Shown in pieces: positions 1 to 61,664 of a stretch of 64,000 nucleotides of DNA (positions are counted from its first letter, which is position 1; every line of letters begins with the position of its first letter). Source of the stretch: Spirometra erinaceieuropaei (Eukaryota > Platyhelminthes > Cestoda > Diphyllobothriidea > Diphyllobothriidae); assembly GCA_902702965.1 (NCBI GenBank), contig CACRXP010000008.1, positions 1,812,977-1,876,976 on the forward strand. The letters run 5' to 3'. The position numbers and the translations under genes were made by a program. The notes under the pieces were generated by a model that worked only from the letters and a program-made list of their open reading frames with translations, was not told the DNA's origin and searched no databases.

Positions 1-282
1 GCTTTTAGCAAGTATCAACGTCGGGAGTACGGTATAATACGTTTACTATATGGATTTCATACTACTCGTAGTACTGCTTGTTTGGAGAATGGGCATTACG
101 TGGTTATTCCACAGTAGTTGATTTTCTTCGACTCGAATTTTCATTGAAATTTCAACTATGACGACTTAAAGTAATGTCCCGGAGATGAAACTCCAAGTCC
201 TGCACTGAGTCATTTCTGAAATTATTCGCTTGATTATTCTCTGCAGTTCATATACCAGAAACCGCTAGAGAAGGCTGCGGGT

Positions 283-353
283 CAAACTGAAGAGTCGAAC
301 AGGTCGCAGCTGTGACACATGTCGGCAGAATATCGGCGAAACACGTGTCTGGG
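283..353 (+). ncRNA. hammerhead-like ribozyme, satellite monomer 1
   Basis: Core boxes are all present: CUGAAGA at 287-293, helix II of GUCGA with UCGGC (G-C outermost, one U.G wobble), GAAA, then the self-complementary ACACGUGU as helix III, then C at the expected cleavage position (triplet GUC). Helix I is weak in this copy (CAAA facing UGGG, two of four pairs). The long helix II carries an inner arm, decayed in this monomer. Read by eye only; activity is inference. Confidence 0.6.
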
Positions 354-634
354 CTTTTAGCAAGTATCTACGTCGGGAGTACGATATAATACCTTTACAA
401 TATGGATTTCATACTACTCGTAGTACTACTTGTTTGTAGAATGGGTATTACGCGGTTATTCCACAGTAGTTGTTTGACTTCGTCTAAAATTTTTATTGAA
501 ATTTCGGTTCTGAGCCGTAAAAGTCATGTCCGAAATATTTAACTCCAAGTCCTGCACCGAGTCATTTCTGAAATTATTCGCTAGATTATTCTCTTTAGTT
601 CATATACCAGAAACAGCTAGAGAACGCTGGAGGT

Positions 635-705
635 CACACTGAAGAGCAGAACCACTCGCAGCTGTGTCACACAGCGGCAGAATATCGGAGAAACACGTGT
701 ATGTG
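635..705 (+). ncRNA. hammerhead-like ribozyme, satellite monomer 2
   Basis: CUGAAGA at 639-645, GAAA, and the ACACGUGU palindrome are intact. Helix I is CACA with UGUG, four Watson-Crick pairs, where most other monomers have CCCA with UGGG: a compensatory change. The predicted cleavage triplet is GUA, allowed by the NUH rule. The base of helix II is damaged (GCAGA facing UCGGA), but the inner arm GCUGUGU/ACACAGC is perfect. Confidence 0.6.
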
Positions 706-986
706 CTTTTAGCAAGTAACTAGGTCGTGAGTACATTTTAATACTTTTAATGTGTGGATTTCATACTACTCGTAGTACTACTTGTTTGTAGAATGGCCAT
801 AACGTGGTTATTCCACAGCAGTTGATTGTCTTCGACTCGAATGTTCATTGAAATTTCGGTTCTGACCAGTAAAATTCTTGTCCAGGATATTTCACTCCAA
901 GTCCTGCACTGAGACATTTCTGAAATTATTCCATTGATTATTCTCTGCAGCTCATATACCAGAAACCGCTAGAGAAGGCTAGGGGT

Positions 987-1057
987 CCCACTGAAGAGCC
1001 GAACCCCTCGAAGCTGTGTCACACAGCGAAAGAATATCGGCGGAACACGTGTCTGGG
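987..1057 (+). ncRNA. hammerhead-like ribozyme, satellite monomer 3
   Basis: Helix I CCCA with UGGG (4 bp), CUGAAGA at 991-997, helix II GCCGA with UCGGC (5 bp, G-C next to the core as in canonical hammerheads), inner arm GCUGUGU/ACACAGC, helix III ACACGUGU, cleavage triplet GUC. The second box is GGAA instead of GAAA, so this copy is probably weakened. Confidence 0.6.
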
Positions 1058-1338
1058 CTTTTAGCAAGTATCTACGTCGGGTTTACGGTATAATACCTTC
1101 ACTATAAGGATTTCATACTACTCGTAGTACTACTTGTTTTTAGAATGGGCATTACGTTGTTATTCCAGAGTAGTTGATTGCCTTCGACTCGAATGTTCAT
1201 TGAAATTTCGTTTCTGCGCCGTAAAATTAATGTACCGCATATTTCAATCCAAGTCCTGCACTGAGTCCTTTCTGAAATTTTTTGCTTGAACATTCTCCGC
1301 ATTTCATAAACCAGGATACGCTAGAGAACACTGGGGGT

Positions 1339-1409
1339 CCCTTTGAAGAGCCGAACCCCTCGCATCTGTGTCACACAACGGCAGAATATCGGCGAAACAC
1401 GTGTCTGGG
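1339..1409 (+). ncRNA. hammerhead-like ribozyme, satellite monomer 4
   Basis: Helix II GCCGA/UCGGC, GAAA and ACACGUGU-C are intact. The first box reads UUGAAGA (C3 to U), and helix I is CCCU facing UGGG, so the pair next to the core is lost. Likely a decayed copy of the same block. Confidence 0.5.
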
Positions 1410-2039
1410 TTTTTAGCAAGTATGTACGTCAGGAGTACGGTTTAATACATTTACTATATGGATTGCATAATACTTGGAGTACTGCTTGTTTTTAGAATGG
1501 TCATTGCGTGGTTATTACACAGTTGTTGATTTTCGACGACTCGATCGTTCATTGAGATATAGGTTCTGACCAATTAAAGTTATGTCCCGGAAATTTATCA
1601 ACGATCCTGCACTGAGTCATTTCTGAAATTATTCGCTTGATTATTTTCTTCAGTTTAGATAGGAGACACCGCTAGTGAAGGCTGGGCGTCCCACTGAACA
1701 GCCGAACCCCTCGCATCTGTGTCACACAGCGGCAGAATATCGGCGGGACACTTGTCTGTGCTTTTAGCAAGTATGTACTTTGCGAGTAATGTATAATACA
1801 GTTAATACATGAATTTCATACTTCTCGTAGTACTACTTGTTTTTAGAATGGGCATTACTTGGTTATTCCACAGTATTTGATTGCCTTAGACTCGAGTATT
1901 CATTGAAATTTCGGTTCTCACCCCTAAAATTCATATCCCGGACATTTAACTCCAGGTCCTGCACTGAGTCATTTCTGAAATTATTCGCTTGCTTCTTCTC
2001 GGCAGGTCATAAACCAGAATACGCTTGGAAATCTGGAGT

Positions 2040-2110
2040 CCGACTGAAGAGCCTAACCCCTCGCAGCTGTGTCACACAGCGGCAGAATATCGGCGAAGCA
2101 CGTGTCTTGG
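2040..2110 (+). ncRNA. hammerhead-like ribozyme, satellite monomer 6
   Basis: CUGAAGA at 2044-2050. Helix I is CCGA with UUGG, four pairs including one G.U, different again from monomers 2 and 3 but still paired. Helix II is GCCUA/UCGGC. The second box reads GAAG and helix III GCACGUGU, followed by C. Confidence 0.5.
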
Positions 2111-3048
2111 CTTTCAGCAAGTATCTACGTCGGGAGTACTTTATAATACCATTATTATATGCATTTCATACTACTCGTAGTACTACTTGTTTGTAGAATA
2201 GGCATTACGTGATTATTCCACAGTAGTTGATTGACTTCGACTCGAATGTTCATTGAAATTTCGGTTTTGACCCTAAAAGATCATGTTCTAGATATAGACC
2301 TCCAAATCCTGCACCGAGTAATTTCAAAAAATATTCACTTGATGTTTCCCTGGATTTCATATACGATAAAGAGCATAGAGAATGCTGTGGGTACCACTGA
2401 AGAGCAGAACACCTCGGAACTGTGTCAGGCAGTGGCAGAATATCGGTGGAACTCGTGTGTGGGCTTTTCGCAAGTGTCTATTTCGGGAGAACGGCATAAT
2501 ACCTATACCATATGGATTCCATTGTACTCGTAGTACTAACTTTTTGAAGAATGATCATTACGTGTTTATTCCACAGTAGTTAATTATCTTCGACTTGACT
2601 GTTCATTAAAATTTCGGTTCTGACCCTTAATAATAATGTGCGGAAATTTTTCGTGAATTCCTACACTGAGTAATTTCTGATATTATTCACTTGGTAATTC
2701 CCTGGAGTTCCTTGCCAGAAACGCATAGAGAAGTCTGGGGGTCACATTGAATAGCCGAACACCTCGCAGCTGTGTCATGCAGCGGCAGAATATCGGCGAA
2801 GCACGTGTCTTGGTTTTAAGCAAGTATCTATGTCGGGAGTGCGGTATAATACATATACCATATGGATTTCATAGTACTCGTTGTACTGCTTTTCGTAGAA
2901 TGGGCTATACGTGGTTATTCCACATCTGTTGATTTTCTTCGACTCGAATGTTCATTGAAATTTCTCTTCTGACATAAAAGGTATTGTCCCGGAAATATAA
3001 ATCCATGATATAATGTAGATATATACTAATTCAAAGAGTTCTTCAGAG

Positions 3049-3640
3049 CAGATTGTCTAGACATGACCGGTACACTTAATATAATATTCTAAGTAGATCC
3101 TTTAAATCAAGAAAACGAATCCTGCAAACTGATTTCTTTTATTAGCCAACAAGCTCCTAACTGACCGCATATGCATTTCTACTGTCAGTTTAGAAGATAT
3201 TAGACGCTTCAAAACTACGTCTCGTAGTTTAATCCCTGAAACATCTGGCGAACTGACAAACCAATTCTGTACCCGAGATAATATCTGATTTAACTTATAT
3301 TCGTCTGTTGTACACTGAGGTCTCAGTGAGGCCATATTCACCGCAGTAACTGATTTATATGGGGTGATTTGCGGACGCCCAAACACCGCGGATTGGGACG
3401 TCAGCTTCGCCGTCGCATCTCATACAGGGTTTGCTTTTCACACCAACTGGCGATAGCGATACATCAGGCTAGTGCTCACGCTTCTGCAATGGTAAGTGTT
3501 TACGCGAAAGCACAAACAATACGACGCACCGCATATCTTCCGTTCAGTCCAATGAAAGCGGTTTGATTATTTGGGTCGCCTTTATCGCAGGCAAATCTCT
3601 GGTTCCGGTGTGATGACAAAATGAAAAAGGTGTGCCCAGT
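3049..3640. repeat. dispersed repeat R1, copy 1 (partner at 10104-10660)
   Basis: Matches 10104-10660 in direct orientation over about 560 bp, roughly 80-85% by eye. Both copies keep an open minus-strand frame of 94 codons (3102-3386 here) beginning MFGRPQITP and ending in a lysine/arginine-rich stretch; about 74 of 94 residues agree. I do not recognise the protein. In this copy the repeat runs into a PLE fragment at about 3640; in the other it runs into unrelated sequence at about 10660, so the boundary looks real. It may be an unknown transposon fragment. Confidence 0.7.
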
Positions 3641-3874
3641 ATCAAGGGTGGGCATGGCCATTTGAGACAGGTGATCTCGCCTCTTAACTGCCAGTGCATA
3701 TTCATGGATGCATGAGACGCTAATTTTCCCGCTTGGCCACAATATGCGGCATAACAAGCATCGCATAGGATCTTGTAGATGACTTCTTTTTTTATTGAGG
3801 TAGCCAACCCTAGCAAGCTGAGTGCGTAAAGCAGTGGTCAGTTTGTGCGCCACTTTTATTTGGTGATTCTCCAA
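3640..3874 (-). pseudogene. PLE C-terminal (GIY-YIG) fragment
   Basis: Minus-strand translation in two frames gives the end of a PLE protein: a stretch like IKVAHKLTTALRTQLAR, then VIYKI..C..CYAAYCGQAGK corresponding to the GIY-YIG motif, then IHEYALAVKRRDHLSQ and TLDTGH. A frameshift separates the pieces and the domain breaks off after TLDTGH where repeat R1 starts. It is closest to PLE-A elsewhere in the window. Non-functional. Confidence 0.75.
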
Positions 3875-4109
3875 GTGTCTTCCAACAAAGGTAATTATGT
3901 TTACTCAGGGAATGTAAGCCAAAAAAACTGACATGTGATTTTTACACGAAGGATACTGCACCCTGAAAATCATGTTTTAAAAAAGAAACGTTTTTAGAAA
4001 AGCGGAGAAATTCCGAGAATGTCATGATTGGTGTAAAGTGAGTAAAATTCAACTGTCGATATATATGTATATATATATGCAGAATGGTATTACCGATAAA
4101 GACAAGGGA

Positions 4110-5053: not shown

Positions 5054-5080
5054 AATATATATATATATATATATATATAT
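5054..5080. repeat. (TA)n microsatellite
   Basis: Uninterrupted TA tract joining the SINE tail to the 3' end of PLE-B. A matching tract at 7568-7595 bounds the other end of PLE-B. Confidence 0.95.
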
Positions 5081-5561: not shown

Positions 5562-7567
5562 TCAGGGGCGCAAGTCAGTGAGCCGGGCACGCAGACCTTC
5601 GTAATGAGCATCTAGATCGACATGGCGATTGATGCTTGTCGTGTTAGAGTGCCAGGCTTCGAGGAATTCACGAGCGTGTTTGGTGTTCGCCATGGCAACA
5701 ACTTCAGTTCCTTCCCAGTTGAAGCGATGGTCGCATTCAAGGGCGTGTGCAAACACGAGTGACAAAGGGTCACGTCGGCGGATGGCTAGTTTATGCTCGT
5801 TTATACGCGTCCCAAGTCGTCGGCCTATATGACCAACATAGTCGCAAGAGCAGTTGGCGCACGGAATGCGGTAGATGACATTGGATTGCTGCTCTTTAGG
5901 TATAGGGTCTTTCACTCGCGATAGTGTTGCGCGCACAGAGGACGCCGGCTTGTGGGCAATGAAGATGCCAAACCGGTTTAGTTGTCGGGCGATCGCTTCG
6001 GAAATACCCTGCATGTAGGGTAGCGAGTAGAATTTCCGATGTTCTGGTCCCTCATTAGAACCAAAACCTTGTGGTTGTCTTTGATGCCTGAGACAATTTT
6101 TTACAAAGCTGACCGGGTATCCGTTGAGTCGGAATAACCGATACAGGAAAGCGAGTTTTTTCTTACGTAGATCATCGCTGCTGCAGTACCGATAGGCCCG
6201 GTGGAAAAGGGTTCGGACACAGGTCCTTTTATGAGCCGCAGGATGGTTGCTTTCATAATTAAGAATGACGTCAGCACTGGAGTCTTTTCGGTAGACGCTT
6301 GTTGCAAGGCCGCCATCACTTAGTGTTTGGATACTAACGTCTAGAAACGGGAGAAAGCCTCCTGTTGCCTTTTCGCAAATAAACTGGATAGCTGGGAAGA
6401 CGCTATTCAGACTCAGATGTAGCTGCTCAATTTCGCAGGTCTTCATGATAACAAACGTATCATCTACGTATCTGAGCCACATTTTTGGTTTAAAGGTTCG
6501 CATAACCTCCTCTTCTAGTTGTTGTAGTACTAGTTCAGCTATTAGACCTGATATTGGCGAGCCCATTGGTGTACCCCTAACCTGTTGATAAAACTTTCCA
6601 TCGAATTGGCAGTAGTTCTTGAGACAGAGTCTAAGAAGTTCTGAAATGTGTTCTATCGGAATGTTGGTTGGATTATCTTTCAGGCGTCGGGTTACGCTCT
6701 CAATCGCTAGGTCATGTGGTATTGAGGAAAACAGGGCAACCACATCAAACGATAGAATACACTCATTAGGACTTACTTTCAGGCCTTGGATCTTCTGAAG
6801 GAATGCCTGAGAGTTTTTGATGCTATATTGTGATCCATTGGTGAGGTGCTTCAGGTGCCTGTATAACCATTTAGCGAGGTTGTAGGTGGGCGATCCAATA
6901 AGCGGCACTATGATCCTCAATGGCGCACCTTCTTTGTGCACCTTTGGGAGGCCATATGCATGGGCTATTCGGGGGTCGTTGAGAGTCATACATCTGGAGT
7001 CATCGGCGGTTATGAGTTTCAGTCGAGTGAGCTCATTCACCTTCTTTTTTACAGCTGCGGCTTGCTTTTTAGTCGGGTCTTCCGCGAGTGGTGTGTAGGC
7101 TTCCCTGTCGTTAAAGACTTGGTTCGCTTTGTTGACGTAATCACTCTTTTCCATGACGACGGTCGCGCCACCTTTGTCAGCAGACACAATCACAATGCTG
7201 TCGTCCGTCCTAAGCGACTGTAGTCCTTTTTCTTCATCGATTGGCAAGACTTGGTGGTGCTTCCTTTGTCGAAGGAGACCAGTGGCACAGCTGCGTATGT
7301 CTGCGCGCATTTCTTCAGCCACAGCAGAGGTCAGTAAAATAGATTCAAGGCTCGCTAAGAAGTTTGTGAGCGCAGCATCAGAGTGGCTGAATTTTGTTCC
7401 TCTAGATAGTAGACTAAGTTCAGCGGATGTTAGACTCCTTTTAGAGAGGTTAACAACTCTTGTCGATCTGCTGGTTTCGTTGACAGGGCGAAGAAGAGAT
7501 TGCAGTTTCGCTTGAAGATCGGCTCGCCTTTTCATTCTGGCGTCTAAAGCGGTGGCATTTATTCGGT
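5562..7567 (-). CDS. PLE-B reverse transcriptase with GIY-YIG endonuclease
   Basis: An open frame of about 667 residues (682 if the artificial IYIYIY leader from the (TA)n tract is counted). PLE RT features in order (682-aa numbering): SADKGG at 143-148, LPKVHKEGAPLR at 221-232, SFDVVALFSSIP at 287-298, GTPMGSPISGL at 346-356, catalytic YVDD at 381-384, FLDV at 422-425. A C-terminal GIY-YIG domain follows: VIYRIPC at 578-584, YVGHIGRRL at 591-599, TRINEH at 601-606, and a conserved E near 648. The protein copies element RNA primed at a nick made by the endonuclease (family knowledge). The N-terminal PLE region (HR..N.ILPK.. type) is missing. No stop or frameshift in the remainder, so this is a recent truncated copy. 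The true start codon is lost. Confidence 0.9.
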
Positions 7568-7593
7568 GTATATATATATATATATATATATAT

Positions 7594-7837
7594 ATCAGGA
7601 AAGGGCGCACACCGATCTATTGGCTTCACGAAGCAAACAAGCTCCGTATGTGTGGCAAAGGTCACGAACAGGCAACCAATTACCAGGCCGAAGTCGGCCA
7701 AGTCATAATAGCAGCGAGGTGGGACGACAGAGAATGCGGGTAGATTGAAACAGTATTGCTTCGGGCTTATTGTGCCTTCATTCAGCCAATCATAACCCTC
7801 AATGTTGCCAATAGATCGGTGTGTGCCCATTCCTGAT
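7594..7837. mobile_element. small inverted-repeat (MITE-like) element
   Basis: Termini 7594-7624 and 7807-7837 are 31-bp inverted repeats with two mismatches, enclosing about 180 bp with no coding capacity. The ends read ATCAGGAA inwards. The left end abuts the (TA)n tract at 7568-7595 and the 5' end of PLE-B. No clear target duplication, and no parent transposase in the window. Confidence 0.75.
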
Positions 7838-9073: not shown

Positions 9074-9271
9074 TTCCGGCTGCATACCAAAACTATTCTC
9101 TGTTATAACTGAGTATTTATATAGCTTGCATTTTTCTCGTTGATTTTGGGTGCCCTTAAAAATTTAATTATATTCCGGCTGCATACCAAAACTATTCTCT
9201 GTTAGAACTGAGTATTTATATTGCTTGCATTTTTCTCTTTGATTTTGGGTGCCCTTAAATATATATTTATA
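9074..9271. repeat. 99-bp tandem duplication
   Basis: Two adjacent copies (9074-9172 and 9173-9271), each beginning TTCCGGCTGCATACCAAAAC, nearly identical apart from a few substitutions and a diverged end of the second copy. It lies just before repeat R2. Confidence 0.9.
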
Positions 9272-9279
9272 TTTTCTAT

Positions 9280-11869: not shown

Positions 11870-12075
11870 TGATACCGACAAAGACAACGGAGACCGGAAT
11901 GGCCATCATTGGCTTAAAAGCCTTTCTTGTCGGTGTCGTCTCTTTTACTTATACCAGTAATCGCTGTGCGACTACCTGAGAGCGTTCTAGTATACTTCCA
12001 AGGAAAAAACGGAATGAGCATGCTCCGCAACCTGATCGGTAGGCAAATATCCACCACAATATATATATATATATA
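11870..12075 (+). repeat. SINE scrap with tail module and (TA)n
   Basis: Begins GATACCGACAAAGACAACGG and folds back on CTTGTCGGTGTC, retaining only the outer part of the SINE body (the CUGANGA box is gone). Then comes the tail module (ATCGCTGTGCGACTACC..., CCTGATCGGTAGGC) ending in (TA)n at 12059-12075. The TA tract abuts the 3' end of a minus-strand PLE-A copy. Confidence 0.7.
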
Positions 12076-12977
12076 AATTGAAAAACAGGCATCCCAAGAT
12101 ATATAATTAGAAAGGTGAAGTTTTTTGGGAAACAGCAAAATTTAATTGTGAATTTTTGAGACTGGTTCCCCAGCTCGTCTTCAGACAACAGCTGTGCAAA
12201 ACAATAAACCTTTAGCCTGAGTCTAGCAAAAGGAGTCCATGATTGGTTAAGGTTGTTATCTCGGGATTGGCTGACTCGGTTTGAATCTGTCCTTAACGAT
12301 TTTGCATGTGGCATCTAAATCGATATGCCGGTTGATGCAAGCCTCATCTGAGTGCATTGCTTCCAAGAATTCGCGGCCTTTCCTTGTTTGGCAGGCGCCA
12401 ACAATGCGAGTGTTTTCCCATGCGAATTTATGCCCAGTGTCTAGTGTGTGCACGGCCACCTGGGATAGATGGTCGCGTCTCTTCACCGCTAACTGATGCT
12501 CATGTATCCGGCTTGAGACAGATTTCCCAGTTTGGCCACAATAAACGGCATCACAACTAGAACACGGGATTTTGTAGACGACACTATTTTCTTTCAAGGT
12601 AGCCGACTCTGTCCTTAGGGCGCACAAGCTGTGTGCGTAAGTTAGTTGCCGGCTGGTGTGCTACGCGTATCTGGTACATTTTCAATTGTCTTTCGACAAG
12701 TTCAGATACATTTTTGACGTATGGGAGAGTTCGCCATGTGGTTGGTTTTGGTGCCTGAGTGGCCGTTGTATTGGAAATACCTTTTCCCTTGAGTTGCTGG
12801 TGCCTCATGCATTGACGTATAAAGTCATGCGGGTACCCATTTTGAGAGAACAATTTGTAGAGGTATTTCATTTCTGCTCGATAACTTGTTTTGTCAGAGC
12901 AGTGGGTTTTGGCTCGATTCAGAAGGCTGTAGACTGTGCTCCGTTTGTGAGAGACAGGGTGATTACTCTCAAAGTGA
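12076..12977 (-). pseudogene. PLE-A 3' part, minus strand (GIY-YIG end and 3' UTR)
   Basis: Two frames joined by one frameshift near 12600. 12584-12977 encodes HFESNHPVSHKRST...LPYVKNVSELVERQL..YQIRVAHQPATNLRTQL. 12256-12627 encodes VVYKIPCSSCDAVYCGQTGK, SRIHEHQLAVKRRDHLSQ, then REFLEAMHSDEACINRHID, the complete PLE GIY-YIG domain. The 3' UTR continues to 12076. The copy is cut at 12977 exactly where an inverted PLE-A 3' end begins. Confidence 0.85.
12145..12190 (-). ncRNA. hammerhead-like motif, PLE-A minus copy
   Basis: GUUGU, CUGAAGA, hairpin GAGCUGG/CCAGUCUC, then AAAAAUUC (first G of GAAA mutated to A), ACAAU. Helix I GUUGU/ACAAU pairs fully. Probably inactive because of the G12 change. 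Confidence 0.5.
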
Positions 12978-13395
12978 AGAGACGCGACCATCTATCCCAG
13001 GTGGCCATGCACACACTAGACACTGGGCATAAATTCGCATGCGAAAACACTCGCATTGTTGGCGCCTGCCAAACAAGGAAAGGCCGCGAATTCCTGGAAG
13101 CAATGCACTCAGATGAGGCTTGCATCAACCGGCATATCGATTTAGATGCCACATGCAAAATCGTTAAGGACAAATTTGAACCGAGTCAGCCAATCCCGAG
13201 ATAACAACCTTAACCAATCACGGACTCCTTTTGCTAGACTCAGTCTAAACGTTTATTGTTTTTGCACAGCTGTTGTCTGAAGACGAGCTGGGGAACCAGT
13301 CTCGAAAATTCACAATAAAATTTTGCTGTTTCCCAAAAAACCTCACCTTTCTAATTATATATCTTGGGATGCCTGTTTTTCAATTTATACGTATG
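12978..13395 (+). repeat. PLE-A pseudo-LTR (3' end copy) upstream of PLE-A
   Basis: A plus-strand copy of the PLE-A 3' end (VKRRDHLSQ... to the stop near 13204, then the 3' UTR) placed immediately before the N-terminal coding start of the PLE-A at 13396. The same sequence recurs at 15470-15598 plus 20253-20529. Penelope-family elements are known for such partial tandem copies (pseudo-LTRs). With the minus copy at 12076-12475 it also forms a long inverted repeat. Confidence 0.8.
13272..13316 (+). ncRNA. hammerhead ribozyme motif, PLE-A pseudo-LTR (intact core)
   Basis: GUUGU 13272-13276, CUGAAGA 13277-13283, one extra C, helix II GAG+CUGG / CCAG+CUC with loop GGAA and a bulged U, GAAA 13304-13307, the rest of AAUU, C at 13311 (triplet UUC), then ACAAU 13312-13316. 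Helix I pairs GUUGU with ACAAU (five pairs, one wobble). Helix III is the self-complementary AAUU, minimal as reported for PLE hammerheads. The best-preserved PLE copy here. Confidence 0.65.
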
Positions 13396-15598: not shown

Positions 15599-15802
15599 TG
15601 TAGTGACATTTAAGTCCGTTTTGTTTTAATCAGTTACAATACGTTTTGACACAACTTTGAATAAGACAAACAACACGCACGTGCACTTTTGCCTGCTGAC
15701 GACTTTGTTCTTATTTACTAGTTTGTAACTGTTGGGATACTGCTATTTTCGTTTCCCGGATAGCCTACTCGCTGTGCCCAACTAGTGGGTTTATCACTTA
15801 CA
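15599..15802 (+). repeat. Gypsy 5' LTR
   Basis: 204 bp, TGTAGTGACA...CACTTACA, matching 20045-20248 except for three substitutions (15644, 15667 and 15800 region). Confidence 0.95.
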
Positions 15803-15820
15803 CTGGTGACCCTGTATCGT
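15803..15820 (+). promoter_or_regulatory. primer-binding site, tRNA-Trp-like
   Basis: CTGGTGACCCTGTATCG directly follows the LTR. TGGTGACCC is complementary to a tRNA 3' end reading GGGTCACCA, as in metazoan tRNA-Trp, the primer reported for CsRn1-clade elements. Assignment to tRNA-Trp is inference from nine bases. Confidence 0.6.
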
Positions 15821-16034
15821 TCATAGCTCCTTCTTTTTCATTTCTGTGCATAACTATTTCCATTCGGATTAATCCTCACTCTATTTTTTATCGATCAGAT
15901 TATTCATTTAGCCCTTATTTGCTATTCACATTGTCTCACCCTTTTATCCAATACGAGCGCTACCCTTTAATCTTACTGTCAACGCGCCAGTCATCTACCC
16001 CATTTATCTGACCTCTGACCGACCTCGGCTAATT

Positions 16035-16838
16035 ATGTCCAACGATTCTACCAGCCAGCCGATAGCCGGCATTCACACCTTTGACCTGCCTTCCGTGTGG
16101 CTCGGTGACATCGCGTTGTGGCTGCGCACTGTAGAGTCCCGTTTCGCCCTCCGTCAGATCACACGAGAGGATACGAAATTTCACTATGTTGTGGCAGCAC
16201 TCCCAATGGACATCGCCACCGACCTCCGCGACATCATAGATTGTCCGCCCACAGAAGCCCCTTATACTGCCCTTAAGGAGGCTCTCATTTCCCGCATTTC
16301 CCTCTTAACGCTAAAACGTCTCCAACGTTTAATTTCTGAGGAGGACCTCGGTGACAGGAAGCCTACGCAGCTTCTTAGACGTTTGGAGCAGTTGGCAGAC
16401 GGACAATAGCTGGATGCCACCATGTTCAAACACCTTTTCCTCCAACGGTTGCCTCCTTCTGTGCAAGCCATCCTTGCGCCTAACATTCCTTCATCGACTG
16501 TTCAGATGCTCGCGGAGACTGCCGACCGTATACTCGAGTACTACCAGCGTCCTGTTACGGTTAACGTCGCTAGTCGAAGCACAATTGCCCCCACAATCGA
16601 GGATGTCGTCAAACGCCTGGATGCCCTCACACTCGAAGTTTCCCAGCTCCGGGCCACTCGTGTCCATAACCCTCGTAGCCCTGCGATTTCTCGCCGCCCG
16701 AGATCTCCCACTCCAAATCAACCTGCAGTTGATGGTTTCTGTTGGTATCATCACAATTATGATTCTAACGCCCATCGCTGCCACTCTCCGTGCAAGTATA
16801 AAACACCCGCGTCTGAAAACTCCCCTGCCGACCAGTAA
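16035..16838 (+). pseudogene. Gypsy gag (one in-frame stop)
   Basis: One frame from ATG 16035 to TAA 16838, broken by a single TAG at 16407-16409 after RLEQLADGQ. The capsid-like part has the CsRn1 pattern: KFHYVVAALP, DIIDCPP, PYTALKEALISR, RLISEEDLGDRKPTQLLRRL, FLQRLPPSVQAIL. The C-terminus carries CWYHHNYDSNAHRCHSPC, i.e. C-x2-H-x9-C-x3-C, a CHCC knuckle rather than the retroviral CCHC. Gag packages element RNA. Pol begins 11 nt downstream in another frame (+2), so pol expression probably needs frameshifting or reinitiation. Confidence 0.85.
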
Positions 16839-16849
16839 GGGCGACGAAC

Positions 16850-17518
16850 GTGGTCGGCACATCCTCTCCCAGTCGCTTACTCCACATCTATAACAAGACT
16901 TCCTGTCGTAATTTTCTCGTGGATACTGGTGCGGAGATCAGTCTAATCCCACCCACCTTGACTGACCGTAAGTCACCAAACTCTTCATTTTTCCTCCAAG
17001 CAGCTAACAATACTTCTATTAAAACCTTTGGTCAACGATCCCTAACACTAGATTTGGGTCTAAGACGTTCATTTCGTTGGCTATTTACAATCGCCGATGT
17101 TCATACTGCCTTTCTCGGCGCTGATTTTATATCTTTTTTCGGTCTCCTCGTTGACAGCAAGTCCCATAAATTATTTGATCCTAAGACTTCTTTACATTGT
17201 AATTGTTCCACTCGTACCATTTCATCACCTCATCCACGCATTTCAACAATCCCTTCGTCTACTCCCTATCATCGTTTACTTTCGGAATTTCCATCTATCA
17301 CACGACCCTCACAATTTAACCAACCTATCAAGCATTCTGTTGTACATTATATTTCAACTACTGGACCACCCGTGTTTAGCCGTCCCCGTCGTTTAGCCGC
17401 CGATAAGCTAGCCATAGCCAAGGCTGAATTCAGTCACATGATGAAGCTGGGCATAGTTAGGCCTTCCACTAGTCCATGGGCTGCACCTCTAGATATGGTG
17501 TGCAAAAAGTCTCGTTGA
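16850..17518 (+). pseudogene. Gypsy pol part 1: protease and start of RT
   Basis: 222 residues beginning MVGTSSPSRLL. Aspartic protease motif FLVDTGAEISLIPP at residues about 23-36, the second protease block ADVHTAFLGADFI at about 83-95, then the RT approach ISTTGPPVFSRPRRLAADKL. The frame ends at a TGA created by one extra T near 17514-17516; the RT continues in the next frame ([12 protein letters not shown]). Confidence 0.85.
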
Positions 17519-19976
17519 CTGGCGCCCTTGCGGGGATTACCGACGGTTAAACACCTGCACTGTGCCTGATAGGTATCCACTTCCCCATCTCCACGACTTT
17601 TCATCTAGCCTAGCTGGAGCAACAATATTTTCCAACATTGACTTAGTCAAAGCTTTCCATCAGATACCCGTTGCTCCAGAAGACGTTCCCAAAACGGCGA
17701 TTACAACACCGTTCGGCCTGTTCGAGTTTGTCAGGATGCTTTTTGGGCTACGCAACTCCGCTCAAACTTTTCAACGTTTTATCAACGAAGCCCTCCGCGA
17801 CCTACCTTTCGTTTTTGTCTACGTCGACGATGTTCTGGTAGCAAGTTCCAATGAACACGAGCACCTACAACATTTGCGTCACATTTTTGAACGATTGAGC
17901 CAATTTGGCGTTTTCCTTAATGTTTCTAAATGTGTTTTTGGCGCACAGTCGCTGCTTTTCCTAGGACATCGCGTAGATGCTTCTGGTTGTCATCCCATAG
18001 ACGCCAAAGTTTCAGCTATTCGCGATTTCCCTACTCCCACTTCTTTTCAACAACTGCGCCGTTTTATAGGCCTTGTCAATTTCTATCGACGTTTCATCCC
18101 TCATTGTGCTCAATTAATGCTACCACTTACTAACCTTTTACGCGGGAACAACCGTGAGTTTTCTTTTCCTGACACAGCTGTAGAGGCTTTCAATCGTGCC
18201 AGAAAGGCTCTTGCGGATACAACTGCCCTTGTTCATCCTATACCTGATGCCCCACTTTCCATTGTGGCCGACGCCTCCAATTTCGTTATAGGTGCTGCCC
18301 TTCAGCAACAGACGCCCACTGGCACCCAGCTCTTGGCTCTCTACTCTGCCAAATTGACACCCCCACAAACTCGCTATAGCACTTTTGGTAGAGAACTTCT
18401 TGCAATTTATTTAGCCATTAAGCATTTTCGTAATTATATTGAGGGCCGAGATTTTCGTATTTATACTGACCACAAGCCCCTTACTTATGCCCTCTCTACT
18501 TCTTCTGACAAGTATTCACCCCGCGAGACCCGCCATCTCGATTTTATTTCTCAGTACACCACCGACATTCGATTTCTTAAAGGCCTTTATAATCAAGTTG
18601 CTGACTGTCTTTCTCGGCCTGGCATTAACGCCATCAACCGCCCTTCCATTGATTTGGAGCGCATGGCAGAACTGCAAAATCAGCCGACTTTCAGTGAGAG
18701 CCTTCAACACACTAGTCTTCAACTCGAAGCCATTCCTCTCTCCACCACCCCCGGTACAATCTTGTGTGACGTATCGCGCGGTGCCTCCCGACCCGTAGTG
18801 CCAAGCGAGATGAGACGAGATGTTTTTGCCGCGTTGCACAATCTAGCTCACCCTGGCATCCGCACTACCCAGCGCCTCGTCAGCGAGCGTTTCGTTTGGC
18901 CAAGCATGAACACTGATATCCGCCAGTGGACCCGTTCATGTTTGGCCTGTCAGGAGGCCAAAGTCGGACGGCATAACAAAGCCCCCATTGGCACTTTTCT
19001 CGCACCCGACGCACGTTTTTCACATGTCCATATCGATCTAGTAGGTCCCTTTCCAACATCTCGTGGTTGTAACTACTTACTTACTGCGATTGACCGATTT
19101 ACTCGTTGGCCCATTGCAACTCCCATACCTAGCATAACTGCAGATTCCGTTGCTCATGCTTTTTTGGAACACTGGATCTCTCATTATGCCGTCCCCTCAA
19201 CTATTACCACCGATCGAGGTCAACAATTCGAGTCTAGACTTTTTAGCAGCCTTACCAACCTCCTCGGATGTTCTCGCATACGCACGACAGCATACCACCC
19301 CTCATCCAACGGCTTAGTCGAGCGTTTCCACCGGCAACTCAAAGCCTCGCTCCGAGCTCATGACAACCCTTCCCATTGGAGCGATCATCTGCCTTTGGTC
19401 ATGCTCGGTATCCGTACCGCACTCAAGCCCGACTTAGAGTGTTCCGCTGCCCAACTTGTCTACGGTACCACCCTACGGATTCCCGTGGATTTTTTCGGGT
19501 ACCCTCAAAGCTCAGCCGACTTGGATCCCAGCGACTATATGCAAAGATTGCGCCAAGCCATGACTCATCTTCGAGCCACTTCTCCACGTCCTTCAACAAG
19601 TAAGTCGTACGTCGACCCGAACTTACTAACATGTTCTTTTGTATTTGTCCGCGTAGATAGCATTCGCCGGCCACTACAACAGCCCTATGACGGCCCACTT
19701 CGAGTACTATCGCGCAAGGACAAGCATTTTACAATTGACCGTGGAGGCCGCACCGACGTGGTCCCAATCGATCGCTTGAAGGCGGCTTACACCGAGCCTC
19801 TTTCAACTTCTCCAACCGAACAACCTCCACTTGGCACATTGCCACTTGCTATTTCCCAGACTCCATTTACGCCCAATAACCCCGCATCTTCCCTTAACCC
19901 ACAGACTCCTTCCCTTACTCGCAGCGGTCGTCATGTCCGTTTTCCCGATCGTTACCAACTTGTACAATATGCATAA
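17517..19976 (+). CDS. Gypsy pol part 2: RT, RNase H, integrase
   Basis: About 804 residues from [10 protein letters not shown] (17562), with coding similarity starting at about 17517. [28 protein letters not shown], catalytic [11 protein letters not shown] (YVDD at residues 87-90). RNase [16 protein letters not shown] and [11 protein letters not shown]. Integrase: zinc-binding H-x3-H (HNLAHPG) and CLACQ, catalytic core [31 protein letters not shown] (D,D,E). A GPF/Y-type module [18 protein letters not shown] and [12 protein letters not shown] close it; no chromodomain is seen. No stop in this part. Upstream frameshift separates it from protease. Confidence 0.92.
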
Positions 19977-20030
19977 CACTCCCACATTTTCCTTCTATTA
20001 ACAATAATTTTTTTTGAACTCCGTTCTCCT

Positions 20031-20044
20031 AGGATGGGGAGTAT
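20031..20044 (+). promoter_or_regulatory. polypurine tract
   Basis: AGGATGGGGAGTAT immediately precedes the 3' LTR, the expected primer site for plus-strand DNA synthesis. Confidence 0.75.
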
Positions 20045-20248
20045 TGTAGTGACATTTAAGTCCGTTTTGTTTTAATCAGTTACAATACGCTTTGACACAA
20101 CTTTGAATAAGAAAAACAACACGCACGTGCACTTTTGCCTGCTGACGACTTTGTTCTTATTTACTAGTTTGTAACTGTTGGGATACTGCTATTTTCGTTT
20201 CCCGGATAGCCTACTCGCTGTGCCCAACTAGTGGGTTTATCACTTGCA
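20045..20248 (+). repeat. Gypsy 3' LTR
   Basis: 204 bp, TGTAGTGACA...CACTTGCA; three differences from the 5' LTR. Followed by the AGAC target duplication and then PLE-A sequence. Confidence 0.95.
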
Positions 20249-20252
20249 AGAC

Positions 20253-20527
20253 AATGCACTCAGATGAGGCATACATCAACCGGCATATCGATTTAGATGT
20301 CACATAAAAAAATCCTTAAGAACCGATTCAAACTGACTCAACCAATCCCGAGATGATGACCGTAACCAGTCATAGAATCCTTTTGCCAGACTTAGTCTAG
20401 AAGTTAATTGTTTTTGCACGCCCGTTGTCTGAAGACGAGCTGGGGAACCAGTCTCGAAAATGTACACAATAAACTTTGCTGTTTCCCAAAAAGCCTCACC
20501 TTCCTAATTATATTTCTTGGGATGCCT

Positions 20528-20529
<2 letters not shown>
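20253..20529 (+). pseudogene. PLE-A C-terminus and 3' UTR after the Gypsy insertion
   Basis: Resumes with HSDEA.INRHIDLD.T, the end of the GIY-YIG protein, then the 3' UTR matching 13205-13390 (GATGCCTGTTT end). The tail runs directly into (TA)n at 20530-20558. Confidence 0.85.
20424..20470 (+). ncRNA. hammerhead-like motif, PLE-A 3' end
   Basis: GUUGU, CUGAAGA, GAGCUGG/CCAGUCUC hairpin and GAAA are intact, helix I GUUGU/ACAAU is kept, but the helix III/cleavage stretch reads AAUGUAC instead of AAUUC, two bases longer. Probably impaired. Confidence 0.5.

Positions 20530-20558
<29 letters not shown>
20530..20558. repeat. (TA)n microsatellite
   Basis: TA tract between the PLE-A 3' end and an isolated satellite monomer. 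Confidence 0.95.
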
Positions 20559-20559
20559 C

Positions 20560-20790
20560 GCAAGTATCTATGTCGGGAGTACGCTATAATACCTTTACCA
20601 TATGGATTTCATACTACTCCTAGTATTACTTGTTTGTAGAATGGGAATTACGTGGTTATTCTACAGTCGTTGATTGTCTTCGAAACAAATGTCCATTGAA
20701 ATTTCGGTTCTGACCGTAAAAATTCATGTTCCGGAGATTTAACTCCAAGTCCTGCACCGAGCAATTTCTGAAATTATTCACTTGATATAT
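20560..20790 (+). repeat. isolated 351-bp-satellite monomer (partial)
   Basis: Matches the 5' array from the CGCAAGTATCTATGTCGGGA landmark through TCCAAGTCCTGCACCGAG and GAAATTATTCACTTGAT, about 230 bp, in the same orientation. It stops before the ribozyme block and starts about 11 nt after the predicted cleavage site. It sits 17 kb from the array, directly after a (TA)n tract. Confidence 0.9.
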
Positions 20791-36900: not shown

Positions 36901-37240
36901 GATACCGACCAAAAAGACTGATATTTCTCCAAAACTAACAACTATTTCAGCGGCCGTTTGCGAAACGTTCACCAGTTAAGTAGGCCAAATGACATGTACA
37001 TCACTTATACCATATCTAACCGCCTAACTTCGCAGGAAGGCTCAATAGAAGCCAAAAGCCATGCGAAATCTTAAGCTTAGGCAAGCTACCTGAAATTTCC
37101 AATATCGATAAACATATGCTAGCATATATTCTGGTAATCTCCCATCCTAAACATTAAATCATCGTTGATATTATTTAAGCCGTTTTCGCATCAGACACAT
37201 AATGCGCGAACGCAGTCTCAGCCGTCGAGCCGATCTATTT
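33920..37240. other. AT-rich intergenic, no gene recognised
   Basis: About 3.3 kb with only short frames, none matching a known domain. I see no internal tandem repeat or transposon fragment. Confidence 0.45.
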
Positions 37241-37639
37241 CAATTTCAATTATTTTATTAAAGACCCGTCGGGGTCCCATCAAAGCAAGTAAAAATAAAT
37301 TTACATGCAGATTTTCGACGATGTAGGCAAAATCTGCACAAAGTGCAATGCATAGTTTTTGAGGTTAGAAGTTCATTAAGCAAGATGAAAATGAAAAAAA
37401 CGAGGGGTGAAAAAATAACTCCAAAGCAAAATTTAAAAATGATTGTAGTAATTTGACAGGAGAAAAAAAAACCCCTCCGAAAAATAGCATCAGATAAAAA
37501 AGGGAGGACTGGCCTGCATGTGGCGGTACAAAATGGAAAAAAGCCCGACATCAACATGGCCGAAATAGATGTCAGCTGTATATGGCATTGTGTAACGGAT
37601 TTCATAAAATGGTACGTAGGCGGGTTGGTCAGGACTGGC

Positions 37640-38320
37640 CTGTATCGCCTTGAATAAGAAAAAAATAAGTGCCGAAATTGAAAACCAGTTTCAAACCGAT
37701 AGGAACCCAGATGCGGTCGGTTTCATTCAACCGAGTACATCCGAGGATGGGGCAAGGGAGATGCGACCAGACTACTAGTATATGGCGAATAGAGAAGGCT
37801 TTGTTAAGACCGCCGATGGAGCGCATTCTGTAAGGGCATGATGACAACCACTCTCGAGGCGACAAGAACCCAGATGCGGTCGGTTTCATTCAACCGAGTC
37901 CATCCGAACATGGGTGGAACATGGGGGGAGGGAGAAGCGACCAAACTACTAGTATATGGCGAATATAGAAGACTTCGTCAAGACCGCCGATGGAGCGCAT
38001 TCAGTAAGGGCACGATGACAACCAGTCTCGAGGCGACAAGAACCCAGATGCGGTCTGTTACATTCATCAGAGTCCATCCGACCAGATTACTGGTATATGG
38101 CTAATATAGAAGGCTTCGCCAAGAGCATCGATGGAGCGCATTCAGTGAGGGCATCAGAAGATCAGTCTCGAGGCGATAGGAACCCAGATGCGGTCGATTA
38201 CATTCATCCGAGTCCAACCGAGGATGGGGGAAGGGAGATGCGACCAAACTACTAGTATATGGCGAATACAGAAGGTTTCGCCAAGAGCGTCGATGGCGCG
38301 CATTCTGTGAGGGCACGATG
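37640..38320. repeat. minisatellite, four units of about 140-174 bp
   Basis: AACCCAGATGCGGTC recurs at 37703, 37867, 38041 and 38181, each with CGACCA..CTA(C/T)TAGTATATGGC and GATGGAGCGCATTC. Unit lengths differ by internal deletions. It lies within the 3' part of the truncated LINE; the full LINE at 60.9-61.6 kb has no such array. Confidence 0.85.
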
Positions 38321-38574
38321 CATGAACTAAAAAATTGGAATAATTAACATTTCTGGTGAGGGATCTTAGGAAGCGAGACTACTCATAAAGAAAGGAAACG
38401 TGAACAGATACGGAAATTTAATAGCGGCATACTAAATTCCCGGTGGCCCTTTCTCAGTGTCATAGAAAAAGTTGTCTGGGAAGGATGAGGAAAATAAAAG
38501 TTTAATCGAGTCAGTATTCAGATAAAGGCGTAGCCTTCACTTAAAGGTGTGTAGATTTTCTGAAGATCTTATAT

Positions 38575-57661: not shown

Positions 57662-58702
57662 ATGAATTGCCCTAAATCAAATATGCCCCAACCTAGTTCA
57701 GGCTTCCCACCACTTAAGGCCAATTGCACTCAGGTACGTCAAACTATCTCCTTTGACTTCCAACCTAGACCTGGTTTCCCACTATTTCATTCTTTTTGTG
57801 GCCTACCCTCGCCCATTAGCCCCTACTTTCCTTCTAGCCTCCCTCCTCCTCCTCCCCTATCTCCATTATTTAACTACCAACAAGTCTATCCATGTTCTAA
57901 CTCCCCTAGCATTCCAATGTTTGAAAACTATATCCCCACCTCCTTTAGGTCTCATACTCAGCCTTCTCTTGCTGACTCCCCGTACGTCAATAACTCTAAA
58001 TTAACTGGTACTTACTCTCCAAGTGTCATTAATTCGCGGCTTACATATCCGCCCCCAAATTTTTTAAATACCGTCGAAAATAGCATTGCCGTTCGAAACA
58101 CATTAGATATTATATTATTGAATGCCAGATCTTTTATTAACAAGATAGTCCAAATCAGACCCATTGCTCTGGAAATGACGCCTGATATTATATGTGTAAC
58201 TGAATCTTGGACACATTCTCTAATTCCTGACTCTGTCCTTCTCATAGATGACTTCAATTTTTACCGCCAAGACCGCACGACTAGGCGTGGGGGTGGTAGT
58301 TTTCTTTATCTTAAATCCTACCTAAAGCACTCTGCCTATTACTTGGATGTTTCCTTATTCACGGGAAACTTCTGCTTTGCATCTGTTATTCTCTCGCCGC
58401 AAAGAAAGGCAATTATTGGCTGTATCTACAATCCCCCAAGTTCTTTAGCCAGTGATGATTCTCAACTTTGTGAAATCTTTAAATTAATTTCGGAAGCTGC
58501 TTTCGATGTTAAAATAATCACTGGGGACTTTAACCTTCCTGAAATAGAATGGATTTCCAATAGCTGCCCACCCAGATTCCAGCCCTTTCAAGTTATTGTC
58601 AATTTTTCTAATTGGTCCCAACTGGTGCGCTCTCCAACAAGAGATAATCACATTTTAGATCTAATCTTTACCAATGACATTGCTCCTCTTTCTGTTGTTT
58701 AA
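57662..58702 (+). CDS. LINE ORF2 part 1: endonuclease
   Basis: Pro-rich leader, then an apurinic-type endonuclease: DIILLNARSFINK, ITPD-like DIICVTESWTHSLI, RRGGGSFLYLK, IIGCIYNPPSSL, IITGDFNLPEIEW, DNHILDLIFTND. It nicks the target for primed reverse transcription. The frame ends at TAA 58700-58702; a one-base deletion near 58700 separates it from RT, which reads KKDLFDSDHVL in the next frame. Confidence 0.85.
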   Translation: MNCPKSNMPQPSSGFPPLKANCTQVRQTISFDFQPRPGFPLFHSFCGLPSPISPYFPSSLPPPPPLSPLFNYQQVYPCSNSPSIPMFENYIPTSFRSHTQPSLADSPYVNNSKLTGTYSPSVINSRLTYPPPNFLNTVENSIAVRNTLDIILLNARSFINKIVQIRPIALEMTPDIICVTESWTHSLIPDSVLLIDDFNFYRQDRTTRRGGGSFLYLKSYLKHSAYYLDVSLFTGNFCFASVILSPQRKAIIGCIYNPPSSLASDDSQLCEIFKLISEAAFDVKIITGDFNLPEIEWISNSCPPRFQPFQVIVNFSNWSQLVRSPTRDNHILDLIFTNDIAPLSVV

Positions 58703-60879: not shown

Positions 60880-61639
60880 ACGGTCTCATTCCCGAACACT
60901 CAGGTTGTTGACTTCGAGAAGGGTCCTCCTGGGATTAAGTGGTAGATTAAGTGGTAACTCTTAATTATATCACTAGAAACCCCTGTTTTGAATTGGTTTC
61001 TTAATCCACTGCTATCACTCCTCCCCCATAGCGACAATTTTCGCGGTTTTTGATGTCATCTCCCGCATTCCGACCTCATGCGGTCTGTTGGCGCTCAGGG
61101 CGTAACCCTCAGTATTCGCCGTCTACTAGTAGTTCGGTCGTACCTCCCTTCCTCACTGCTCGGCTGAGCTCGAAGCGTGCTGCGGCCGATCGCATCTGGG
61201 TTCCTCTCGTCTGGCCTCTTTGACGCGGCGTACCAATCCGGCCCAGACTATCTCAATTGTGAATCCCGTATACAATGCCATATGCAAGCCAGTCCTGGCT
61301 GACCCATATTCGTACCCATCAAGGCTGACATTTATTGCTACCCTGACGATGACCGACAACATTCCGTTATATACCGCCACCTACAGGCCAGTCCTGCTCG
61401 CTTTTTTCTATCATTATTTTTCTGGAGGGGTTTTTTTTCTCCTGTAAAATCAATCCAATCATTTTTAACTTTTAGTAAGGAGTTTTTTTTCACCCCTCAA
61501 TCATCATGTTTCTCAATGGACTTCTAATTCAGAAACTATGAATTGTATTTGTAAAGATTCGGCCTATTTCGTATAAAACTAGCATGCAAATTTATTTTAA
61601 CTTGCTTTGATTGGACCCCGACGGGTCGTTAATAAAAAT
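60880..61639 (+). other. LINE 3' untranslated region
   Basis: Between the RT stop and the (TCTA)n tail. Contains short homopolymer runs (T8 at 61431 and 61485) and the conserved terminus also present at 37246 and 42050. Confidence 0.7.
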
Positions 61640-61664
61640 TATCTATCTATCTAAGGCTTCTGAA

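Follow-up and report, generated by a model that had tools for sequence, protein, structure and literature searches.

Hammerhead satellites have been known since 1987. Here we describe a 352-bp repeat with a predicted hammerhead ribozyme in Spirometra erinaceieuropaei, found in a tandem array at the start of a 64,000-nt stretch of DNA (contig CACRXP010000008.1, positions 1,812,977 to 1,876,976 of the forward strand; hereafter the window) and in copies dispersed over the genome. The kind of element is already known, and we read the repeat as a non-LTR (long terminal repeat) retrozyme. We estimate at roughly 0.64 the probability that a Penelope-type reverse transcriptase (RT) produced the dispersed, near-identical copies from circular RNA, many of them at (TA)n, with the window array as a decayed edge.

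Published work is cited here for those sections of each paper that bear on such repeats. Animal non-LTR retrozymes were defined as type I hammerhead repeats of 150-450 bp, occurring as dimers to multimers with a GC content below 50% and, when present, target-site duplications of more than 4 bp, and platyhelminths are mentioned among their hosts (PMC7229834). Absence of LTR, PBS and PPT, a highly self-paired unit RNA and expression in linear and circular form also belong to the retrozyme criteria. In that paper RNA circles were proposed as templates and Penelope elements as likely helpers, with no insertion evidence for either shown in the sections cited. The original prediction, made from the letters of the window, had named newts, cave crickets and schistosomes as carriers of ribozyme satellites; this list of precedents was incomplete, given that PMC7229834 mentions platyhelminth repeats of such a kind. 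With 352 bp and 44% GC, the unit lies within the described range of size and composition, and it also resembles animal retrozymes in hammerhead type, in the form of helix III and in the company of Penelope elements. It differs from them in a long second arm of helix II and in that no target-site duplication was found; the wording "when present" in the definition does not bar membership. Two start zones, (TA)n targets and pairs that combine both zones, as reported below, are not described for retrozymes in the cited sections of PMC7229834, and the unit is less self-paired than described retrozymes (PMC4918200).

The Sm-alpha and W-element satellites of Schistosoma (PMC8490949) likewise contain type I hammerheads, with core-mutated beside intact copies, and occur both in arrays and dispersed. 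In contrast to them, the window array resembles no Rfam RNA except Hammerhead_1, and that below the cut-off, and no tRNA-like part was found in the repeat: as for features of a tRNA-derived short interspersed nuclear element, the doubled window consensus contains neither an A nor a B box, and the window has no tRNA gene. In pDo500 of Dolichopoda cave crickets (PMC2837043) a hammerhead also lies within a satellite monomer, where it is more conserved than the rest and folds into an active form in 146/198 copies, whereas the hammerhead of the window array is not more conserved. Penelope-like elements with hammerheads (PMC11167929, PMC3846280) share with the repeat an AT-rich target, an internal start of reverse transcription, the priming of both strands, and head-to-head copies in which one end is extended. 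They are unlike it in that the unit contains no open reading frame (ORF), its hammerhead is canonical and not minimal, no target-site duplication was found, and the start zones seem to differ between its two strands. The repeat is not itself a Penelope-like element, which would have an ORF for reverse transcriptase and GIY-YIG endonuclease: the array has no listed ORF of at least 130 aa, 352 bp is too short for one, and the Penelope ORFs nearby belong to separate elements. No report of a hammerhead or retrozyme family in tapeworms was found in the open-licence literature (an earlier report is possible), and no description of such an insertion pattern in the literature searched.

Dispersed copies and their predicted hammerhead

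An exact 21-mer of the repeat (unit positions 24-44) occurs 581 times in the 758.7-Mb genome, array copies included, and not once when read backwards. The 30 best loci contain 38 full monomers, most of which differ from their consensus at 2-9/352 positions, and the family looks young. Single exact patterns of the unit had no match in viral contigs or in animal-free genome contigs. A second long array of the repeat is located on another contig (G000:C14, at least 1,734,343-1,795,152, with the outermost of the listed exact matches ~60 kb apart).

Copy structure was read in 71 loci comprising 104 segments, each 0.1 to 5.9 units long. They remained from 91 loci after removal of 20 (seven duplicates, overlaps or array pieces, and 13 loci of the array on contig C8 to which the window array belongs). 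The set consists of 27 of the 30 best matches, two of the others re-read more widely, eight more from the same search and 34 found by the exact pattern, the latter drawn from the first 100 of the 581 places by following contig order; the overall sample is non-random.

In order along the block, the window consensus has a strand of helix I, CUGAAGA...GAAA...GUC and UGGG. Its elements are CUGAAGA, GAA with an A15.1-U16.1 pair, a GUC triplet, helix I (CCCA/UGGG), helix II (GCCGA/UCGGC) and a two-pair helix III that ends in an ACGU closure. A strict hammerhead descriptor accepts this consensus; among 20,000 dinucleotide shuffles, five passed in the loose form and none with the helix lengths of this block. 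The consensus is predicted to be a self-cutting type I hammerhead, and the earlier claim that it has the canonical type I core (CUGANGA / GAAA / NUH) is borne out. Structure prediction extends helix I by eight pairs beyond a single U bulge and gives helix II a second long arm with a three-base loop, with an internal loop in helix II in addition to the bulge in helix I. For a contact between loops 1 and 2, a GGGG/CCCC complement is present in the consensus, but the eight window monomers lend it no support, as inspection by eye revealed no matching changes across them. The unit of young copies folds better than 293/300 shuffles, the window consensus better than 258/300.

Complete hammerhead blocks were counted in 67 dispersed loci, giving 120 in total, to which multi-unit copies contribute several each. 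The core is intact in 95 of these; core and all 11 helix pairs, in three helices with helix I open-ended, are present in 79, and 54 are letter-identical.

Copy ends and target sites

Copies stop preferentially in two parts of the unit. The 3' end is readable in 98 cases: 58 fall at unit positions 42-59 (zone A), 18 at 234-244 (zone B) and 22 elsewhere. A TA tract follows 31 ends in zone A, 11 in zone B and two elsewhere (42/76 in the zones and 2/22 outside), whereas the background among random 12-mers of these loci is 8/2070. The exact pattern alone yielded 34 of the loci; eight of them are head to head, and together they supply 49 ends: 28 in zone A, 11 in zone B and 10 elsewhere, with a TA tract after 11, 7 and 1, respectively. 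The main zone A ends come after unit position 48 or 54, those at 54 being partly over-extended from 48 by BLAST, and the zone B ends at about 237.

At the junctions, CTTTA, CCATAT or TGAT passes directly into (TA)n. The TGAT type also terminates the truncated dispersed copy in the window (20560-20786, plus strand), which covers unit positions ~11-237 without the hammerhead, ends in zone B at its 3' side and has TATATAC on both sides, its junctions having been placed by eye. A motif common to the junctions of both zones, TT[TC]ACC-N2-AT, was tried and rejected: exact reading of the junctions put the main ends of zone A after 48 or 54 and revealed variant letters in zone B. The register match of 7/10 letters is not rare (16/1277 AT/TA-ending position pairs), and ACCT, which occurs in the unit only at 42 and 231, is absent from some zone B copies. 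The 5' ends are scattered across the unit in the wider sample; a cluster at unit 292-337 among the first 30 loci proved to be largely an artefact of choosing long matches.

These ends bear on the view that the repeat is a plain satellite, with an inert hammerhead-like block and spread as DNA through unequal exchange and excised circles. Array decay with a rise in divergence toward the right edge is typical of satellites, and the absence of extra conservation of the core in the array and of target-site duplications in 26 copies also accords with this view. DNA routes, however, do not predict two 3' zones, TA tracts on the 3' side, varied 5' ends or the A+B pairs described below, and the hammerhead is intact in 79/120 dispersed blocks. 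We regard a plain satellite as very improbable.

Template of the dispersed copies

The uncut junction between unit positions 352 and 1 is present in 88/104 segments, and 40 segments contain two or more such junctions. Cut, unit-length RNA was therefore not the template for most copies. Among 44 copies with a repeated stretch, 23 young ones were picked (identity of at least 97%, 395-703 nt, corresponding to 1.1-2 units). Here the repeated stretch differs between passes at 28/2997 sites and between copies at 820/32,856. Variants recur in the other pass in 29/39 cases and in another copy in 48/394, and passes are more alike than copies in 20/23. From turn to turn, a copy of 5.1 units shows no differences in 3680 comparisons and one of 5.9 units shows 20 in 4935. 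Judged by these comparisons, the young copies are most simply explained by an RNA circle. The earlier suggestion that the repeat spreads as RNA circles thus suits the dispersed copies, with their uncut junctions and shared private variants, but fits the window array less well.

Uncut junctions in 88/104 segments would also result if, in place of a circle, the template had been a long transcript of a tandem array that was never cleaved, with reverse transcription beginning at the internal sites described above. Under such a scheme 5' ends would not be enriched at the cut site, as is seen, and older multi-unit copies such as L078 do differ between turns. On the other hand, adjacent monomers of the window array are 15-24% different, whereas the passes of the young copies are nearly alike and share most of their private variants, an argument that a young, homogeneous source array would weaken. 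An uncut template appears unlikely to us, though it deserves serious attention.

Head-to-head copies and the proposed link to Penelope elements

Head-to-head copies, with 5' ends abutting and opposite directions, are found at 19/71 loci. All 11 pairs with both outer ends in the zones combine one end in zone A with one in zone B. Of the ends that lie in a zone, zone B accounts for 13/27 inside pairs and 5/50 outside (Fisher p 0.0004; a looser flank rule gives this count one zone end more than the 98-end census).

A lizard Penelope protein was reported to cut AT-rich DNA, to extend both strands and to start reverse transcription inside its template, and internal start sites were found to account for the "tail" of genomic Penelope copies (PMC11167929). 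Head-to-head repeats, a tail on one inverted copy and a preference for simple AT-rich targets were described for Penelope elements as well (PMC3846280). In S. proliferum, Penelope elements make up ~10% of the genome according to PMC8166898, in whose main text the word ribozyme does not occur. In the sequence read here, one Penelope family has a perfect (TA)5 within 45 nt at 8/11 3' ends, compared with 72/3513 random stretches; these ends come from loci picked for the 352-bp repeat, and some share the TA tract of the repeat.

Alternatively, the repeat might be moved by an RTE- or CR1-type long interspersed nuclear element (LINE), the inverted pairs being the outcome of ordinary twin priming. 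Twin priming by L1 is known and would account for such pairs. Elements of the RTE-BovB and CR1 types are also abundant, each constituting ~9-11% of the genome in both S. proliferum and S. erinaceieuropaei (PMC8166898). However, 8/11 ends of the Penelope family are in (TA)n, whereas the one LINE checked (58678-60879, with an RT domain) ends in short repeats other than TA in 2/2 copies, read by eye as (ATCT)n and (TTGAAA)n at 61620-61650 and 37240-37260. Double priming with a tail on one arm is, moreover, described for Penelope elements (PMC11167929, PMC3846280). We hold a LINE to be an unlikely mover.

A candidate for the Penelope-type helper is present in the window itself. At 5562-7616 on the minus strand, a Penelope-like ORF with an RT domain is open over 684 aa, and its 3' region runs into (AT)13 at 5055-5080. 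Among 7987 scored candidates, 1158 proteins are related to it at E up to 0.001, the best of them in Spirometra and Sparganum; it is 95% identical to a protein of Sparganum proliferum and 94% to one of S. erinaceieuropaei. This protein places the host among the tapeworms of the Spirometra/Sparganum group, in agreement with the original call of a flatworm.

Both loci of the repeat in the window adjoin the 3' end of a Penelope copy. Next to the array lies a remnant (3034-3904, minus strand) whose TA-rich 3' end is separated by ~25 bp from where the array stops on its right; Pfam gave no match in 3500-3901, and the label rests on likeness by eye to other Penelope copies. At the other locus, the 3' end of a Penelope-like element (20252-20530, plus strand) runs into a (TA)14 tract (20531-20558), which is followed by the truncated copy. 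This Penelope copy is interrupted by an LTR element at 15599-20248 (judged by eye to be Gypsy-type on account of its ORFs; the end repeats measure 204 nt and are 99% alike): it stops near 15593 and resumes near 20245-20252, and its (TA)14 tail abuts the truncated repeat copy. A head-to-head Penelope-like pair occupies 12072-13389 (~12072-12976 minus, 12974-13389 plus), with the left 3' end, but not the right, in (TA)n.

The proximity of both loci raises the question of whether the unit is merely a terminal repeat of a Penelope element, all the more since such repeats carry hammerheads (PMC6155905, PMC11167929). Within the window, however, the unit matches only the array and the one truncated copy at 20560-20786, and its orientation to the adjoining Penelope differs between the two loci. 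Furthermore, the hammerhead of the unit, with its helix III and long helix II, departs from the minimal form of Penelope elements. A terminal repeat is hardly credible as an explanation. In the Penelope copies of the window themselves, a strict scan detected no minimal hammerhead.

State of the array in the window

Tandem Repeats Finder reports an array at 1-2973 with a period of 352 and 8.5 copies; together with monomer alignment, it places the right edge of the array at 1-3006 (plus strand), with eight full monomers and a partial one of 197 nt. The whole array measures 17.3 kb (contig C8, 1,798,718-1,815,981) and comprises 48 near-full monomers, read from overlapping pieces. The array originally placed at 1-3012 is thus real, but it is only the right edge of a larger one, and another, truncated copy exists at 20560-20786.

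As had been claimed, there are eight monomers with a 71-nt block in each in spite of length variation. The 75-nt stretches around all eight blocks align without gaps, giving 71 nt each (4 + 63 + 4), while the core-to-core spacings are 352, 352, 352, 351, 350, 353 and 350. Cleavage is predicted at 349, 701, 1053, 1405, 1756, 2106, 2459 and 2809 in monomers 1 to 8, the first of which agrees with the position given before.

By contrast, the statement that every monomer carries a ribozyme does not hold. No window monomer passes the strict descriptor, which returned two chance-like hits in the window at 36108 and 55042. All 12 core letters of the family consensus are retained in 1/8 window monomers (2/8 if A17 is allowed), and that one has 2/4 pairs in helix I. 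On the plus strand, the block of monomer 1 (283-353) is the one with intact core letters. In monomer 2 (635-705) position 17 is A, a double change keeps helix I and helix II has 3/5 pairs. Monomer 3 (987-1057) has A13G and the best Rfam score of the window (19.6 bits), monomer 4 (1339-1409) has C3U, and monomer 5 (1690-1760) has G8C, A13G and A14G. Helix I is fully paired in monomer 6 (2040-2110), with one double change, next to A15.1G and 4/5 pairs in helix II. A13G and C17G are found in monomer 7 (2393-2463), and C3U, G8U and A15.1G in monomer 8 (2743-2813). Across the 48 near-full monomers of the array, 19 have the 12 letters of the type I core, 12 the core and most pairs, and one everything. 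Divergence climbs toward the right edge (rho 0.90 for the eight window monomers, 0.30 for the 48 array monomers). The window array is a decayed relic, the edge of the 17-kb array.

Pairing in the eight monomers amounts to 88.6% of cells, and to at most 50% with one strand slid. Three pairs are changed on both sides, a number reached by 16/500 letter shuffles. In a wider set (76 matches in 37 distinct rows, including some copies cut at the 5' side, in an alignment fitted to the hammerhead structure), nine double-change cells compare with 2.6 in shuffles (reached by 0/500), and five pairs with a double change compare with 2.5 (46/500). The pair statistics of the eight monomers, few as these sequences are, give modest support for the hammerhead.

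Two further repeats were noted in the window. An unrelated short tandem repeat with a period of ~174 extends over 37747-38387, its copies up to 90% alike, and a 99-bp unit occurs twice at 9074-9273 with 94% identity.

Evidence against the proposed origin

Several observations count against an origin of the copies by a Penelope-type enzyme acting on a hammerhead-made circle. Genome-wide, a pattern for 5' ends exactly at unit position 1, the cut site, found one locus, L049; the pattern demands three unlike preceding bases and an exact 21-mer and hence misses copies. Because of this single locus, cleavage leaves no general mark on the copies. L049 itself contains, at 1304-1593, a head-to-head pair with both arms ending exactly at the predicted cut site. 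L009 begins at unit position 1 as well, preceded by N, and is not counted as evidence. Target-site duplications were absent from 26 single copies whose left flank is not TA (mean repeat of 1.27 nt vs 1.47 after shuffling), a feature that cannot be judged in copies with TA on both sides. When all 44 copies are taken, passes differ at 559/18,099 sites, and 559 variants are unshared vs 219 shared; L078, which is about 91% alike, alone supplies 345 of the 559 differences between passes. Of the 19 head-to-head pairs, six have an end outside both zones and two an unreadable end in a gap.

Other points concern the ribozyme. RNAfold favours a structure in which the core is broken (-35.9 vs -30.0 kcal/mol for the hammerhead), and the unit circle is 62-64% paired vs >70% reported for retrozymes. 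In the C8 array, the 12 core positions diverge by 7.5% and other positions by 11.6%, a difference that cannot be told apart from random columns (p 0.28). Covariation in the eight window monomers is weak, as 39/500 shuffles reach their share of paired cells, and weaker still with the longer helix I (56/500 for that share and 35/500 for pairs changed on both sides). A check with covariance models was proposed along with the original prediction. No match in the window attains the Rfam gathering score, and that of RF00163 (34 bits, a score cut-off and not a biochemical criterion) is never reached in the window or in 20 dispersed loci, the best score being 25.4 bits. Below the cut-off, three in-register Hammerhead_1 matches (19.6, 17.3 and 16.9 bits) occur in 1-3100, for which this is the sole Rfam family at E up to 10. 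In the dispersed copies, Hammerhead_1 scores 22.6-25.4 bits at 23 blocks in 16 of the 20 loci scanned out of 30; the same 20 loci show 15 further sub-cut-off matches to other families. The low RF00163 score is likely caused by the insert in helix II, which has 34 positions vs 4 in the model. One of the dispersed loci (L011, 1284-1359) holds a near-perfect hairpin with arms of ~30 bases and a sub-cut-off Rfam likeness to mir-1329, which is probably a small inverted-repeat element.

The literature on Penelope elements is not uniformly favourable either. For the lizard protein, the sections cited report that the start site does not differ between strands, that reverse transcription starts where the template bears no resemblance to the cleaved DNA, and that ribozyme cleavage is not needed in vitro, which is unlike the pattern here (PMC11167929). 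Penelope elements usually make short target-site duplications, and self-priming on an antisense template is the preferred cause given for their head-to-head copies (PMC3846280).

Proposed cycle

On the interpretation that we favour, the cycle would begin with transcription of tandem copies, whose RNA is predicted to be cut by the hammerhead between unit positions 352 and 1. A host RNA ligase may then close unit RNAs into circles, as can be drawn from PMC7229834. Next, a putative Penelope-type enzyme would cut (TA)n, and the TA end would prime inside the circle, in zone A (48/54) or zone B (~237); the zones and the TA tracts are observed, whereas the enzyme is deduced. It would read through the ligated junction, in many cases completing more than one turn, before dropping off at varied points; such read-through fits because the junction is intact in 88/104 segments and variants are common to passes. 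Both DNA ends may prime, one at A and the other at B, with the two complementary DNAs joined head to head, as suggested by the fact that 11/11 pairs with both ends in the zones are A+B. Some insertions would finally expand by unequal exchange to long, decaying arrays such as that of the window.

That a Penelope RT opens (TA)n, primes both strands in two fixed zones of a hammerhead-made circle and rolls round it is a proposal that we put forward tentatively, at slightly less than even odds. Its corollary, that single, multi-turn and head-to-head copies are the raw material of ribozyme satellites, is equally tentative.

Implications

A decayed satellite of ordinary appearance can be part of a mobile family that is young. 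In a single genome, many young insertions reveal the sites at which copying starts, the crossing of the ribozyme junction, variants shared between passes and the pairing of zones A and B. With them, the question of helper and template can be put to the test using a single protein, a single RNA and a single TA target. If the proposed origin is true, it would answer at the level of sequence by which enzyme, and from which RNA, animal retrozymes are moved, and the family would be a record of how an animal retrozyme enters the genome.

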